Shown piece by piece: positions 4,254 to 9,418 of a DNA stretch of 64,000 nucleotides. The notes below the pieces were generated by a model. It had not been told where the DNA came from and did not search any database. It was given only the letters and a program-made list of their open reading frames with translations. Position numbers and translations under genes: made by a program. The number at the start of each line of letters is the position of its first letter. Within the stretch, counting starts at the first letter, position 1. The stretch is from Bacteroidota bacterium (GTDB lineage: Bacteria > Bacteroidota > Bacteroidia > NS11-12g > UBA955): positions 37,253 through 101,252 of the forward strand of contig CAUJCT010000001.1 in NCBI GenBank assembly GCA_963169345.1, written 5' to 3'.

Positions 4254-5438
4254 TTGAAAATTCTTTTCATAGCCAATAGATTTCCATATCCGCCTTTCAG
4301 AGGGGATAAGCTAAAAATTTACAATCTGGCTAAAAGGATTGCTCAACATCACGAATTACATTTAATCACTTTTGCAGAAAACAAAGACGATTTAAAGTAC
4401 CTGCCGGAATTACAAAAGATCTTTACCAAAACCATAATTGTTGATTTGCCTAAATGGAAAAGTGTTCTCAATGTTGGTATTGGTATGTTGGGTTCGAAGC
4501 CATTGCAGGTGAACTATTTTAAATCAGGTAAATTCAAACGGGAGCTTAGTTTATTGTTAAAAAACAATGAATATGATGCCATTCACGTTCAGCATTTGAG
4601 GATGGCACAGTATGCCATGGATTTGAAGTCAGACTTTCGTATTTTAGACTTGCCTGATGCCTTCTCTTTATACTGGCAAAGGCGCAAATCTGTAGCTAGA
4701 AGCTTACCCAGCAGAATCCTGGACAACATTGAATCAGCGAGAGTTTTAAAGTATGAAAAACTGATTTTGCAAGCTTTTAACTTGAATCTGGTTTGTTCAA
4801 TGGAAGACTTAAAATTCCTTAAAGACAAACACAAAATCGAACATATACGATTATTGCCAAATGGAGTTGATACGGATAAATTCCATCCCCAAAATCACGA
4901 TTATACACATGCACATACTTTGCTGTTTACCGGTAATATGGACTATGATCCAAATGTGGATGCAGTTTTGTATTTTGTAGAGCAAATATTTCCTACCATT
5001 GTTAAGACTTTTCCAAATGTGAAGTTTGTTATCGCTGGTCAGCGTCCAATTGATAAGGTGAAGTCATTACATAATGGCAAAAATATAGAGGTTACCGGTT
5101 TTATACCCGAGTTATCCGACATGTACAATCAAGCCTCAGTTGTAGTAGCTCCATTGAGATTTGGAGCGGGTACCCAGAACAAAGTACTGGAAGCAATGTC
5201 TATGGGAATTCCGGTAGTATGTTCACATATAGGATTTGAAGGATTGGGTATTCAGGATGGAGAAGGTGCTTTTATGAGAAAAGATGCCGACACGTTTGCC
5301 CAGCAGGTTATTACACTTCTCAGCGATGAATCGTTAAGATTAAGTACCGGTCAAAAAGGCATTGAAGTGATACAAAACAATTTCAGCTGGGATAAAGTAG
5401 CAGGCATTTTAGAAGCTTATTTAGAGAAGCGTTTTTAA
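4254..5438 (+). CDS. Glycosyltransferase family 4-like
   Basis: ANRFPYPPFRGDKLKIYNLAKRI; LLFTGNMDYDPNVDAV; VVAPLRFGAGTQNKVLEAMSMGIPVV. TTG start. Confidence 0.88.
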   Translation: MKILFIANRFPYPPFRGDKLKIYNLAKRIAQHHELHLITFAENKDDLKYLPELQKIFTKTIIVDLPKWKSVLNVGIGMLGSKPLQVNYFKSGKFKRELSLLLKNNEYDAIHVQHLRMAQYAMDLKSDFRILDLPDAFSLYWQRRKSVARSLPSRILDNIESARVLKYEKLILQAFNLNLVCSMEDLKFLKDKHKIEHIRLLPNGVDTDKFHPQNHDYTHAHTLLFTGNMDYDPNVDAVLYFVEQIFPTIVKTFPNVKFVIAGQRPIDKVKSLHNGKNIEVTGFIPELSDMYNQASVVVAPLRFGAGTQNKVLEAMSMGIPVVCSHIGFEGLGIQDGEGAFMRKDADTFAQQVITLLSDESLRLSTGQKGIEVIQNNFSWDKVAGILEAYLEKRF

Positions 5439-5501
5439 AAATCGTACTTAAGAAAACAGGAAGGCTATTCAGATTGGAAAAATCCTTTTTATATTCGCTG
5501 C

Positions 5502-6722
5502 ATGCAATCCCCTTCTACTCAGAATCGTTCACTGGCATTAATATTTATAACTCTGCTTATTGATGTAATTGGCATAGGCATCATTATACCGGTCATACCA
5601 AAACTATTAGGAGAGCTTGGGAATTACACTGTATCTGAGGCATCAGCAGTCGGAGCCTGGATGACAGTAGCGTTTGCATTACCACAATTCATTTTCTCCC
5701 CGATATTCGGAGGATTAAGTGATATGTATGGCCGAAGACCAATAATTATTTTATCCTTACTGGGCTTAGGAGTTGATTTCGTCATTCATGCTGTGGCACC
5801 GACAATTTCCATCTTATTTATTGGCAGAATACTGGCGGGAATATGTGGTGCCAGCTTTACAACAGCAACATCCTACTTAGCAGATATCAGTACTCCTGAG
5901 AAACGAGCACAGAATTTTGGTTTAATCGGTATGGCATTTGGATTAGGATTCATACTTGGACCAATGATTGGAGGGCTTGTGGGCAATGAAAATGTGCGAA
6001 TGCCATTTTGGATTGCGGCGTGTTTATCATTTCTAAATGCCATTTTGTGTTTGATGGCTTTACCAGAGAGTTTAAATAAAGAGCACAGGCGTTCATTTGA
6101 CATCAAAAGAGCAAATCCATTGGGGACATTGCGACAAATGAGAAAATATCCGGCAGTATTGCGCATGATGGTGCCATTGTTTCTCATATACATTGCTGCA
6201 CATGCAGTTCAATCCAACTGGTCGTTTTACACCAAATACAAATTCAAATGGGATGAAAAGACAATAGGTTTATCATTGACTATGGTTGGATTAATGATTG
6301 CTATTGTACAAGGCGGATTAATACGGGTAATTGTTCCAAAGTTAGGCAACAGAAAATCTATTGAATATGGATTTTTATTATATGCACTAGGCATGTTGTT
6401 GTTTGCATTAGCGGATAAAACATGGATGATGTTTGCAGTGACGATAGTTTATTGTTTAGGAGGCATTGCAGGTCCGGCCTTGCAAGGAGAAATGTCTAAG
6501 GCAGTACCAGCCAATGCACAAGGAGAGCTCAGTGGAGGCATGACAGCATTGATGAGTATCTCATCGGTATTTGGACCATTGATTATGAATTCCATATTTG
6601 CTGTATTTTCGGGCAAGAAAGCGATAATCGAATTACCCGGAGCCCCGATGATGTTAGGAGCATTGTTGATATTGATATCGTATGTGTTGGTGTGGAGGAG
6701 CTATAGGTTAAAGAGTGTGTGA
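5502..6722 (+). CDS. MFS transporter (TetA-like)
   Basis: 12-TM pattern; GGLSDMYGRRPIIILSLLG motif; TPEKRAQNFGLIGMAFGLGFILGP. Confidence 0.88.
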   Translation: MQSPSTQNRSLALIFITLLIDVIGIGIIIPVIPKLLGELGNYTVSEASAVGAWMTVAFALPQFIFSPIFGGLSDMYGRRPIIILSLLGLGVDFVIHAVAPTISILFIGRILAGICGASFTTATSYLADISTPEKRAQNFGLIGMAFGLGFILGPMIGGLVGNENVRMPFWIAACLSFLNAILCLMALPESLNKEHRRSFDIKRANPLGTLRQMRKYPAVLRMMVPLFLIYIAAHAVQSNWSFYTKYKFKWDEKTIGLSLTMVGLMIAIVQGGLIRVIVPKLGNRKSIEYGFLLYALGMLLFALADKTWMMFAVTIVYCLGGIAGPALQGEMSKAVPANAQGELSGGMTALMSISSVFGPLIMNSIFAVFSGKKAIIELPGAPMMLGALLILISYVLVWRSYRLKSV

Positions 6723-6772: not shown

Positions 6773-6986
6773 TTTTTTAACGCAGATATCGCAGATTTTT
6801 TATTATCTGTTAATTAAAATATTGACATAATGTTTTTAATATCTTTCCTTTTTTCGAACTATCCGCCATAGGCGGAAGGATGTCGCAGAAAGATTCGCGG
6901 ATGATATAGGTGTTTCTCTAATGAATTGGGGGGATAGCGCAAATGGCTTAGGGACAATAAAGATCTGTGAAATCTGCGTCAAAAAA
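6773..6986 (+). mobile_element. MITE-like module 1 (no ORF), imperfect 23-bp terminal inverted repeats
   Basis: TIR-L 6773-6795 TTTTTTAACGCAGATATCGCAGA; TIR-R 6964-6986 TCTGTGAAATCTGCGTCAAAAAA (20/23 match as inverted repeat); central CCGCCATAGGCGG at 6863-6875. Confidence 0.6.
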
Positions 6987-7032
6987 GTCCTCAACATTCA
7001 CTTACAACTCCATTATCACATCCACCGCGACA

Positions 7033-7078
7033 CAATTCAGCATTTCAGCATATCAGCATATCAGCAGCTTAGCAATTC
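7033..7078 (+). repeat. Degenerate 8-bp tandem repeat (CAGCATNT family)
   Basis: CAGCATTT CAGCATAT CAGCATAT CAGCAGCT; same family at 8410-8443 and, on the opposite strand, 34503-34558. Confidence 0.7.
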
Positions 7079-7106
7079 TGCCATCCCATAAGTGTTAACA
7101 GTTTCG

Positions 7107-7903
7107 TTTTTAAACACAGATATCGCAGAATATTATTTATAGAATATTTAAATTTTATATACAAATGTAGAAGTGATTTTGGAACTGTCCGCCATAGGCG
7201 GAAGGAAGTCGTTGAAAGATTCGCAGATGATTTTGGGATAATCTTTAAAAGTCAGGAACTGCGCAAATAGTTCGTCTTAAAAAAACAAACGTTTATAAAT
7301 GTTTAATTTAAGCATAAATTTAAACGCCCCACTTAATTTTGCTGAGATGATATTAGAGAATAAATTAAGTTTCTTGATAAGAAAAGCCATTTTTGAGGTT
7401 AATAAAAACTTAGGCCCGGGATTGAATGAATCAATATATGAAGAAGCACTCAATTACGAGTTATTAAAAATGAATTTAAACGTTGAAAGACAAGTAGTCT
7501 TTCCTGTTTTTTATAAAGATATATATCTACAAAAGACATTTGCTGTAGATATGGTCATTAATAAAGCAGTAATTATTGAATCAAAATCTGTTGAAAGTAT
7601 TAATGAAATTCACAAAAGTCAATTATTAAACTACCTTAAATTATCAGGTATACAATTGGGAATATTAATAAATTTCAACACAAACTATATCCTCGATAAG
7701 AGAGATATTTTTAGAATTGTCAATTCGATTAATAACAGAATTAAAAAATGAATCGTTCAAAACGAGTTCCCAGGTATTTATAAATCATCTTATACACTCC
7801 ATATACCTTAAAAATTCGTAAGATTATAAGGTGGAAATCGAAGTTAAAAATATTAATAAGCTGTAATAAATCGAAAAATTTCTGTGCAATCTGCGTCAAA
7901 AAA
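7107..7903 (+). mobile_element. MITE-like module 2, long form carrying the GxxExxY gene between the same terminal repeats
   Basis: TIR-L 7107-7129, TIR-R 7881-7903 (17/23 match); CCGCCATAGGCGG at 7189-7201; left part nearly identical to module 3; ORF 7299-7751 lies between. Confidence 0.55.
7299..7751 (+). CDS. GxxExxY family protein (PD-(D/E)XK nuclease-like, PDDEXK_3)
   Basis: GPGLNESIYEEAL (GxxExxY motif), RQVVFPVFYK, FAVDMVI...AVIIESKSV (D...ExK), HKSQLLNYLKLSG. Confidence 0.9.
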   Translation: MFNLSINLNAPLNFAEMILENKLSFLIRKAIFEVNKNLGPGLNESIYEEALNYELLKMNLNVERQVVFPVFYKDIYLQKTFAVDMVINKAVIIESKSVESINEIHKSQLLNYLKLSGIQLGILINFNTNYILDKRDIFRIVNSINNRIKK

Positions 7904-8008
7904 AGTCCTCAACATTCAATTACCACATTGCTGTCAACTCAACCGCCAAACAATTCAGCATTTAAGCAGCGCAACGATATAGACAATTCATAAGTCTTAA
8001 CAGTTCCG

Positions 8009-8214
8009 TTTTTTAACGCAGAAATCGCAGAATGTTATTTATAGAATATTTAAATTTTAAATACAAATATAGAAATGATTTTTGGAACTGTCCGCCATAT
8101 GCGGAAGGATGGCGCTGAAAGATTCGCAGATGATACATTATTTGCTTCTAATAATTTTGTGATAGCACAAATGGATATTGGATAAAAATGTTCTGTGCAA
8201 TCTGTGTCAAAAAA
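8009..8214 (+). mobile_element. MITE-like module 3 (no ORF)
   Basis: TIR-L 8009-8031, TIR-R 8192-8214 (17/23); CCGCCATATGCGG at 8092-8104; left part closely matches module 2. Confidence 0.6.
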
Positions 8215-8338
8215 GTCCTCAACATTTTTGGAAGAAAAACTGTTGCTTTCCTCATAACTTTCTGCGCCATCTGCCGGTATTCTGCAAAGCAGATATACCG
8301 GAAAAATCCTAAAAAATAAATTAAACACAATATAAAGT

Positions 8339-8361
8339 TCTGAGTAATCTGCGTTAAAAAA
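8339..8361 (+). repeat. Decayed solo right terminal repeat (module 4 remnant)
   Basis: TCTGAGTAATCTGCGTTAAAAAA followed by the same GTCCTCAACATTCA flank as modules 1 and 2. Confidence 0.55.
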
Positions 8362-8564
8362 GTCCTCAACATTCAAATACCTCATAGCTGTCAATTCCAC
8401 CGCAAAACAATTCAGCTATTTAGCATTTCAGCTATTCAGCTTTCTCTTAGACTTATGCATCGCGATCTGCTTGAGGCTGACAGGTAACGATGACGCCTAT
8501 GGAAGTGACAATAATGTTTCGAGTCATGAATTATGAGAATCTTTAAGAATATCGACAAGCTCTA

Positions 8565-8620
8565 CGACTTAACGACTTAACAACTTAATAACTTAACAAC
8601 TTAACGACTTAACAACTTCT
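8565..8620 (+). repeat. 8-bp tandem repeat [CT][GA]ACTTAA, 7 copies
   Basis: CGACTTAA CGACTTAA CAACTTAA TAACTTAA CAACTTAA CGACTTAA CAACTTCT. Confidence 0.85.
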
Positions 8621-8647: not shown

Positions 8648-9418
8648 TTGCAAGCCGAAACAATGAAAGACAGACGCTACATTATCAGCGGTGCTGGCAG
8701 TGGTATAGGCCGCGCTATTGCACTTAAACTGGCAAGTGAAGGTGCCGGTATTATTCTTGCCGGTCGCAATATGGAGAAACTTGAAGAGACTATGAAATTG
8801 CTTCCTAAAGGCAACCATCTAATCGTTTCTACCGATATTCGTATAAAGAAAAACTGTGAAGAGGTTTCTGAAATCTTAAATGGCACTCACCTGGATGGTA
8901 TAATTGCTAATGCCGGTGTTGGTGGTGAAAATTATTACGGAGAAAATGATCGCTGGGACGAAATTATTGATACCAATCTCAGTGGAACTTATCATTTTGT
9001 CAGCTCATTTCTCGAACAACTCAAAAACAGCAGAGGCGAACAAAAACATATTTTGGTTACATCATCAGTATTGGCTCGACTGGGTGTTAAAAATTACACT
9101 GCCTACTGTGCCTCAAAGGCAGGACTACTTGGTTTGATGCGTTCATGGGCTATGGAACTTGCAGAACACAATATTTTAGTCAATGCCATCAGTCCCGGAT
9201 GGGTCAATACCAATATGGCAAGAGAAGGCATGGAAGGCATTGCCAAAAGTATGGGCATCAGTTATGACGAATTTAAAAAACTGGCAATGCAAAGTGTACC
9301 ATTGGGCAGAATGGCTGAGCCAAATGAAATAGCCGATTTAGTACATTATCTGCTGACACAAAGTGCCATTACCGGACAGGTTGTAGATATTAATTGCGGA
9401 AGCGTGATGAGCAGTTAA
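8648..9418 (+). CDS. SDR family oxidoreductase
   Basis: GAGSGIGRAIALKLA, NAGVGG, YTAYCASKAGLLGL. Confidence 0.92.
   Translation: MQAETMKDRRYIISGAGSGIGRAIALKLASEGAGIILAGRNMEKLEETMKLLPKGNHLIVSTDIRIKKNCEEVSEILNGTHLDGIIANAGVGGENYYGENDRWDEIIDTNLSGTYHFVSSFLEQLKNSRGEQKHILVTSSVLARLGVKNYTAYCASKAGLLGLMRSWAMELAEHNILVNAISPGWVNTNMAREGMEGIAKSMGISYDEFKKLAMQSVPLGRMAEPNEIADLVHYLLTQSAITGQVVDINCGSVMSS

Follow-up and report, generated by a model that had tools for sequence, protein, structure and literature searches.

The GxxExxY gene of the window (the whole 64-kb stretch of DNA analysed here) lies within one of three intergenic modules bounded by inverted ends. With modest confidence, we read these modules as copies of a minimal mobile element and its non-autonomous derivatives, in which the GxxExxY protein would bind, pair and cut the element ends. 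The anatomy of the elements, the association of gene and repeat, the motif and its spacing, the co-variation of repeat class with protein clade, the dispersal, the empty sites, the deletion derivatives and the conserved catalytic residues are direct observations; we infer that GxxExxY itself drives the movement. A first-pass annotation of the window had already proposed a mobile element with ORF-less copies. The gene-repeat association, the dispersal and the empty sites, deletion derivatives and solo ends found in Flavobacterium all support this proposal; the observation behind it was right and understated.

The window array and its copies in the genome

The three modules lie in the intergenic DNA that separates a transporter gene (5502–6722) from an SDR gene (8648–9418), at exactly the coordinates given by the first-pass annotation (Table 1). 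In each module end, a T-rich cap precedes two CGCAGA(T) heptads, which are spaced 9 bp apart. Comparison of the left end with the reverse-complemented right end gave 20/23, 17/23 and 17/23 identical positions for modules 1, 2 and 3, respectively, the same counts as had been made by hand. At a threshold of at least 17/23 to the left-end consensus, the window contains left ends at the three modules only and right ends at four positions (6964, 7881, 8192 and a solo end at 8339), compared to a mean of 0.6 ends at 17/23 in shuffled windows.

Table 1. Features of the repeat array, in window positions.
Feature	Position	Strand	Basis or remark
Module 1, full-length ORF-less copy, putatively non-autonomous	6773–6986	+	Ends complementary at 20/23; aligned with 12 other genome copies
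Module 1 left end: cap TTTTTTAA and two CGCAGAt heptads, 9 bp apart	6773–6795	+	
Conserved core: CCGCCATAGGCGG hairpin and internal CGCAGAT (CGCGGAT in module 1)	6860–6902	+	Again at ~7188–7228 and ~8091–8131
Module 1 right end, inverted	6964–6986	-	End comparison
Module 2, GxxExxY-bearing, putative autonomous copy	7107–7903	+	Sole family copy in the genome with the ORF
Module 2 left end	7107–7129	+	End comparison
Near-palindrome AAACGTTTATAAATGTTT just 5' of the GxxExxY gene	7287–7304	+	Comparison of the genome's two loci
GxxExxY gene, 150 aa, predicted PD-(D/E)XK fold and catalytic D84, E94, K96	7299–7751	+	TIGR04256/PF13366, alignments, AlphaFold2, Foldseek
Module 2 right end, inverted	7881–7903	-	End comparison
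Module 3, ORF-less	8009–8214	+	End comparison and copy alignment
Module 3 tail: GGAAGA..CTTTCC segment, closing with a second right end, which is solo (8339–8361), and AGTCCTCAACATT	8215–8374	+	

Between the ends, the CCGCCATAGGCGG hairpin and the GCGCAAAT block, which had been noted in all three modules, are conserved across the 13 full ORF-less copies of the genome. The insert with the GxxExxY ORF in module 2, put at ~0.6 kb in the first-pass annotation, amounts to ~0.61 kb of DNA that the ORF-less copies do not have (7271–7880) and lies between the GCGCAAAT block and the right end. Beyond the right end the sequence is still conserved (AGTCCTCAACATT), and several copies, including module 3, carry a tail of ~147 bp that ends in a second right end; this tail was also found on copies in contigs C27, C52, C19 and C6. 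Elsewhere in the genome, at C30:10824, there is another GxxExxY gene, which is 55% identical and has its own, different inverted repeat, GTAGATCRCAGAA. The near-palindrome AAACGTTTATAAATGTTT is found upstream of this gene as well, and is a possible operator or promoter.

Modules 2 and 3 are 83% identical across 128 bp, flank included, and the array has therefore probably grown in part by local duplication. It is very improbable that this similarity accounts for the whole array, i.e., that the modules are merely tandem duplicates of one immobile intergenic segment, and such an origin is already contradicted by the full-length copies found on 8 contigs, at about ten places outside the array. The copies are dispersed, as the mobile-element reading had supposed, and not just local. 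Examined as stretches around matches, the genome holds, in addition to the 13 full ORF-less copies, the one GxxExxY-bearing copy, ~8 diverged copies and several solo right ends. The full ORF-less copies are ~210 bp long, have a mean pairwise identity of 74% (range 68–90%) and lie between different neighbour genes at each of these intergenic places. As no full-length copy was found in 16 congeneric genomes, one of which has a marginal left-half match, the 210-bp family has spread within this lineage.

A conserved RNA structure was considered for the copies and rejected. Rfam yielded a chance match only, and RNAalifold paired both ends and a CCGCC hairpin. As none of the 27 pairs is compensatory, there is no evidence of selection at the RNA level.

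Other repeats and a change in gene order were seen near the array. A separate repeat of ~142 bp (8457–8598) occurs in at least nine other places in the genome, often just 3' of the 210-bp element, and a ACTTAACGACTTAAC tract with an 8-bp period (8564–8618) is seen again at G000:C30 near 12310. The glycosyltransferase-like and MFS genes (4254–6722) are co-oriented here and have opposite orientations in congeners. This orientation change appears to be a rearrangement adjoining the repeat array.

Inverted arrays around GxxExxY genes in other genomes

To score inverted repeats, we took the best local alignment between upstream DNA and reverse-complemented downstream DNA, used other genes from the same loci as controls and considered scores of at least 30 strong. 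In GxxExxY genes from 60 related genomes, 34 of 70 had a strong inverted repeat (49%), against 2.5% of 238 neighbours (Fisher 9e-20); one antisense hit (L073 +) is counted twice in this set and was dropped from later analyses. A second set was drawn from 80 named genomes of Bacteroidota, Ignavibacteria, Desulfobacterota, Nitrospirota, Planctomycetota, Cloacimonadota, Lentisphaerota and Proteobacteria, many of them metagenome bins, so that individual phylum labels may err. Strong repeats were found there at 40 of 72 GxxExxY genes (56%) and at none of 143 neighbours (6e-24), in a sample that was gathered with a subfamily alignment and is biased to that GxxExxY subfamily. In a comparison of 140 genes, each with 40 dinucleotide shuffles of its flanking DNA, 78 scored above every shuffle, where 3.4 were expected. 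The first-pass annotation had fixed this flanking of GxxExxY genes elsewhere in advance as a point on which its reading would stand or fall, and it is above chance in both sets.

The window gene itself scores 27, under the threshold, with below-average ends (17/23). The case for it is made by the family copies described above. A strong inverted repeat is missing at about half of the GxxExxY genes, which counts against the element reading. Presence and absence are unclustered on the protein tree (43 changes versus 46.9 when shuffled, p 0.14), and this patchiness fits frequent decay.

Without a preset motif, the 7-mers enriched around GxxExxY genes were ACGCAGA, CGCAAAG, CGCAGAG and their relatives. 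The CRCARAK heptad is 6.2-fold denser in GxxExxY flanks than 1.5–2.3 kb away; the spacing between neighbouring heptads peaks at 9 bp (93 cases, with 29 at 8 and 26 at 10) and their orientation is inward on both sides (476:237). Outermost caps (e.g., TTTAACC, TCTCAC, GTCTGAAT) are common to both arms of one element. Junctions were also read for target-site duplications; the element ends are fuzzy, and because the TTAA of the cap is palindromic in itself, such a duplication is not callable. Arm-to-arm distances have a median of 585 bp, and as fewer than 300 bp of non-coding DNA lie between arms and gene in 58 of 73 units, there is usually no room for a second gene. The exact 23-bp ends of the modules are specific to the window genome, yet they follow a shared rule of a cap and phased CRCARAK heptads ~9 bp apart. 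The conserved core of the window family was not found in the other GxxExxY elements examined. Other small genes seemingly can sit inside CRCARAK arrays: in L246 (1245–3002), a VapBC-like ORF pair, recognised from reading frames only, lies between them.

As the congeners of the window genome are rearranged, we chose Flavobacterium for a comparison of orthologous sites, in which junctions were read in 81 genomes. In Flavobacterium fluvii (L203), GxxExxY lies between two genes that are conserved throughout the genus. The site is filled in L259, L260, L261, L262 and L264, and it is empty in L268, L272, L274, L279, L282 and L283, where the two genes are 11–24 bp apart with no trace of an element. 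In L277, an internal deletion has removed the gene and left both ends of the copy; the left end stands alone in L276, a right-end remnant is left in L278, and L266 carries an ORF-less inverted element of another kind, with CAGAT repeats, in the same place. Related genes of the same clade, with TTTAACCGCAAAG ends, lie behind another gene (L281, L285). Empty sites, which the first-pass annotation had proposed looking for in relatives, were thus found at this orthologous site; for the window array, there was no clean one in the congeners, in which the flanking genes are present with their order and orientation rearranged. Genes that are 76–81% identical at the nucleotide level also occur in other genera amid unrelated flanks (L170/L179, L180/L198, L202/L219), which points to horizontal spread.

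The arrays are intergenic, often directly past stop codons, and nearby repeats that co-vary with a gene's product are also what one would expect of an operator. GxxExxY could accordingly be a chromosomal DNA-processing or gene-regulating protein whose binding sites are the arrays, used for autoregulation and as dispersed functional sites, like the host functions proposed for REP/BIME, with the gene spreading by ordinary horizontal transfer. We consider this quite unlikely, as there are inverted arms on both sides of the gene, and the empty sites and deletion derivatives are the behaviour of an inserted unit. The species-specific bursts of whole 210-bp copies and the horizontal spread with unrelated flanks also speak for mobile elements rather than regulatory sites.

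Repeat class, defined by the dominant heptad (AAG, GAT, GAG or GAA), follows the GxxExxY clade. There are 17 class changes on the protein tree versus 45.5 when shuffled (minimum 38 in 2000). This tree is short, its resolution is weak, and part of the signal comes from vertical descent. Considering only tips that are more than 0.9 substitutions per site apart, we counted 10 class changes versus 15.7 when shuffled (p about 0.001). As non-coding DNA is otherwise not alignable over such distances, this suggests constraint on the arms.

Arrays without a gene are associated with GxxExxY as well. The doubled heptad pattern occurs 312 times in the 60 genomes, versus 57 for the reversed control. Its counts, which include a part from the GxxExxY genes' own flanks, correlate with GxxExxY copy number (rho 0.60, p 3e-7; rho -0.07 for the reversed pattern), and genomes without GxxExxY average 1.1, the background level. 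Many doubled heptads lie elsewhere, where they form short inverted arrays in the DNA between ordinary genes (L240, L245, L250, L251, L258), and one planctomycete genome contains 134 versus 1 for the control.

The GxxExxY protein and the proposed mechanism

GxxExxY genes are common across bacterial genomes and often multicopy. The window protein matches the TIGR04256 GxxExxY profile with 131.2 bits (cut-off 35) and Pfam PDDEXK_3 (PF13366) with 126.5 bits (cut-off 22); these are its sole profile matches, and no recognised transposase domain was found in it. Placement in the PD-(D/E)XK clan, part of the first-pass annotation, is borne out by these matches, by D84, E94 and K96, which are aligned in 139 of 149 homologues and occur in the window gene, and by the AlphaFold2 model, which has a PD-(D/E)XK fold (pLDDT 90.7). 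The nearest structures to this model in Foldseek are Cas4 SSO0001 (4ic1) and lambda exonuclease (3slp), with E-values of 1e-4 to 1e-2 and TM-scores of 0.4–0.5. Cas4 profiles match GxxExxY weakly, and a search of solved structures by sequence gave no match. Judging from sequence and model, the predicted PD-(D/E)XK active site of the protein is intact, and the protein falls outside known transposase families.

Nine genes form a clade that has lost the catalytic lysine (L109, L111–L118). None of the nine has an inverted repeat with a score of at least 30, versus 72 of 130 genes with the canonical triad, and the clade probably consists of domesticated, inactive paralogues. The flanks of L111 and L112 are 76% identical across several kb.

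In the mechanism that we propose, the autonomous form would be a GxxExxY gene between inverted arrays, each with a cap (e.g., TTTAACC or TTTTTTAA) and two to four CRCARAK heptads at a 9–10 bp period, and non-autonomous forms would have retained the ends and lost the gene. As the heptads recur every 9–10 bp, their binding sites would lie on one face of the helix. GxxExxY would bind the phased heptads on this face and pair the two ends, and its PD-(D/E)XK site would nick or cut at the termini or caps. Any DNA between matching ends, whether or not it includes the gene, could then be cut out or be copied into another intergenic site, and host replication or repair would finish the joining through a strand-transfer or repair route. 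We know of no case of strand transfer by PD-(D/E)XK enzymes alone.

The main rival to movement driven by GxxExxY is that other, possibly host, machinery moves the repeats and that GxxExxY is a passenger, or an addiction-type nuclease adapted to the arms. It is the main rival because the S23/IVP genes show a parallel inverted-repeat association: in the same genomes, 19 of 32 score at least 30, with inverted phased repeats of other sequences, so outside machinery may be shared. A passenger role would also agree with the VapBC-like ORF pair in L246 and with the patchy presence of repeats on the protein tree. However, CRCARAK is specific to GxxExxY, with 2.39 sites per window at GxxExxY, 0.47 at S23 and a background of 0.38. 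Repeat class tracks the GxxExxY clade, loss of the catalytic lysine accompanies loss of the repeats and genomes without GxxExxY have doubled heptads at background counts only. We therefore regard a passenger role as doubtful, and continue to favour movement by GxxExxY itself.

No GxxExxY relative was found in IMG/VR or phage records. Distant relatives are present on eight plasmid or secondary-replicon records, one of them within a radA gene row. In this record, a Bacteroides finegoldii plasmid (L228, NZ_OY725952.1), the GxxExxY gene stands in a tight row after radA and is possibly a settled form.

Relation to known systems

By analogy, the GxxExxY element resembles RAYT/REP in its logic and would employ an unrelated enzyme. 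RAYT genes are always flanked by two inverted REPs, and the repeats and the protein co-evolve (PMC2817692). Like the IS200/IS605-like RAYT/REP/BIME/REPIN systems (PMC2817692, PMC3116915), GxxExxY elements have one small enzyme gene and two inverted copies of a short repeat, the repeat co-varies with the protein and dispersed gene-less repeats, often in inverted pairs, occur in the same genomes. Unlike RAYT, which is a Y1/HUH transposase, GxxExxY is a PD-(D/E)XK nuclease-like protein; the Y1/HUH tyrosine transposase domain is absent from the window protein, which is thus not a RAYT. A REP consists of a tetranucleotide (GTAG-type) head and a palindrome, whereas GxxExxY arms consist of caps and phased CRCARAK heptads, and a genome often has several GxxExxY genes and moderate repeat numbers. 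The loose RAYT/REP analogy drawn in the first-pass annotation fits in the inverted flanking repeats, the co-variation and the dispersed gene-less copies, while the enzyme and the repeat architecture differ.

As in IS/MITE pairs, terminal inverted repeats are common to gene-bearing copies and ORF-less copies of 200–210 bp, and empty sites are found (in Flavobacterium). GxxExxY elements differ in that they have no DDE, HUH, tyrosine or serine recombinase, with GxxExxY as the sole gene. The Cas4/lambda-type exonucleases are the nearest solved folds and have the same D-E-K site; GxxExxY is smaller than these enzymes, and there was no CRISPR context at the loci read. A literature search on GxxExxY and the repeat sequences, with subscription journals mostly outside its reach, gave no description of the element; GxxExxY was mentioned only in a gene-table entry and as a passing domain hit, with nothing on repeats.

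These observations place the GxxExxY family in a testable setting: CRCARAK arrays are its candidate substrate, each clade has a partner sequence, and the genes that lost the catalytic lysine are controls supplied by nature. A class of dispersed intergenic repeats in Bacteroidota, Planctomycetota and other groups may also find an explanation here. Should the nuclease indeed move the element, one more enzyme fold would count among those that can drive a minimal mobile element.

The S23/IVP genes (23S rRNA intervening-sequence proteins, TIGR02436) resemble GxxExxY in that a gene of ~120 aa lies between inverted repeats with phased arms, free-standing and in the same bacteria, and differ from it in protein fold and repeat sequences. 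Known S23 elements interrupt 23S rRNA (PMC4990558). The S23/IVP loci examined here (L289–L318, L077 and L078), which encode four-helix bundles, have repeats such as GTACAGAGTACAGAG, TAAACCGTAAAC and TTATTGGTTATTG rather than CRCARAK, and are possibly a parallel element class. Tentatively, we suggest that GxxExxY elements might be a new class of transposable elements over many phyla, in which a lone PD-(D/E)XK nuclease of ~130 aa would recognise the phased heptad arrays at the element ends and mobilise its gene along with derivatives that lack it; S23/IVP elements would then be a second, parallel class on the same phased-repeat architecture. In the window, TTCAGC tracts between the modules (7041–7075 and 8405–8440) resemble the arms of an S23 gene at G000:C13:32341 (L078). 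Because of this resemblance, the intergenic region of the window may be a mosaic of GxxExxY and S23 element types.
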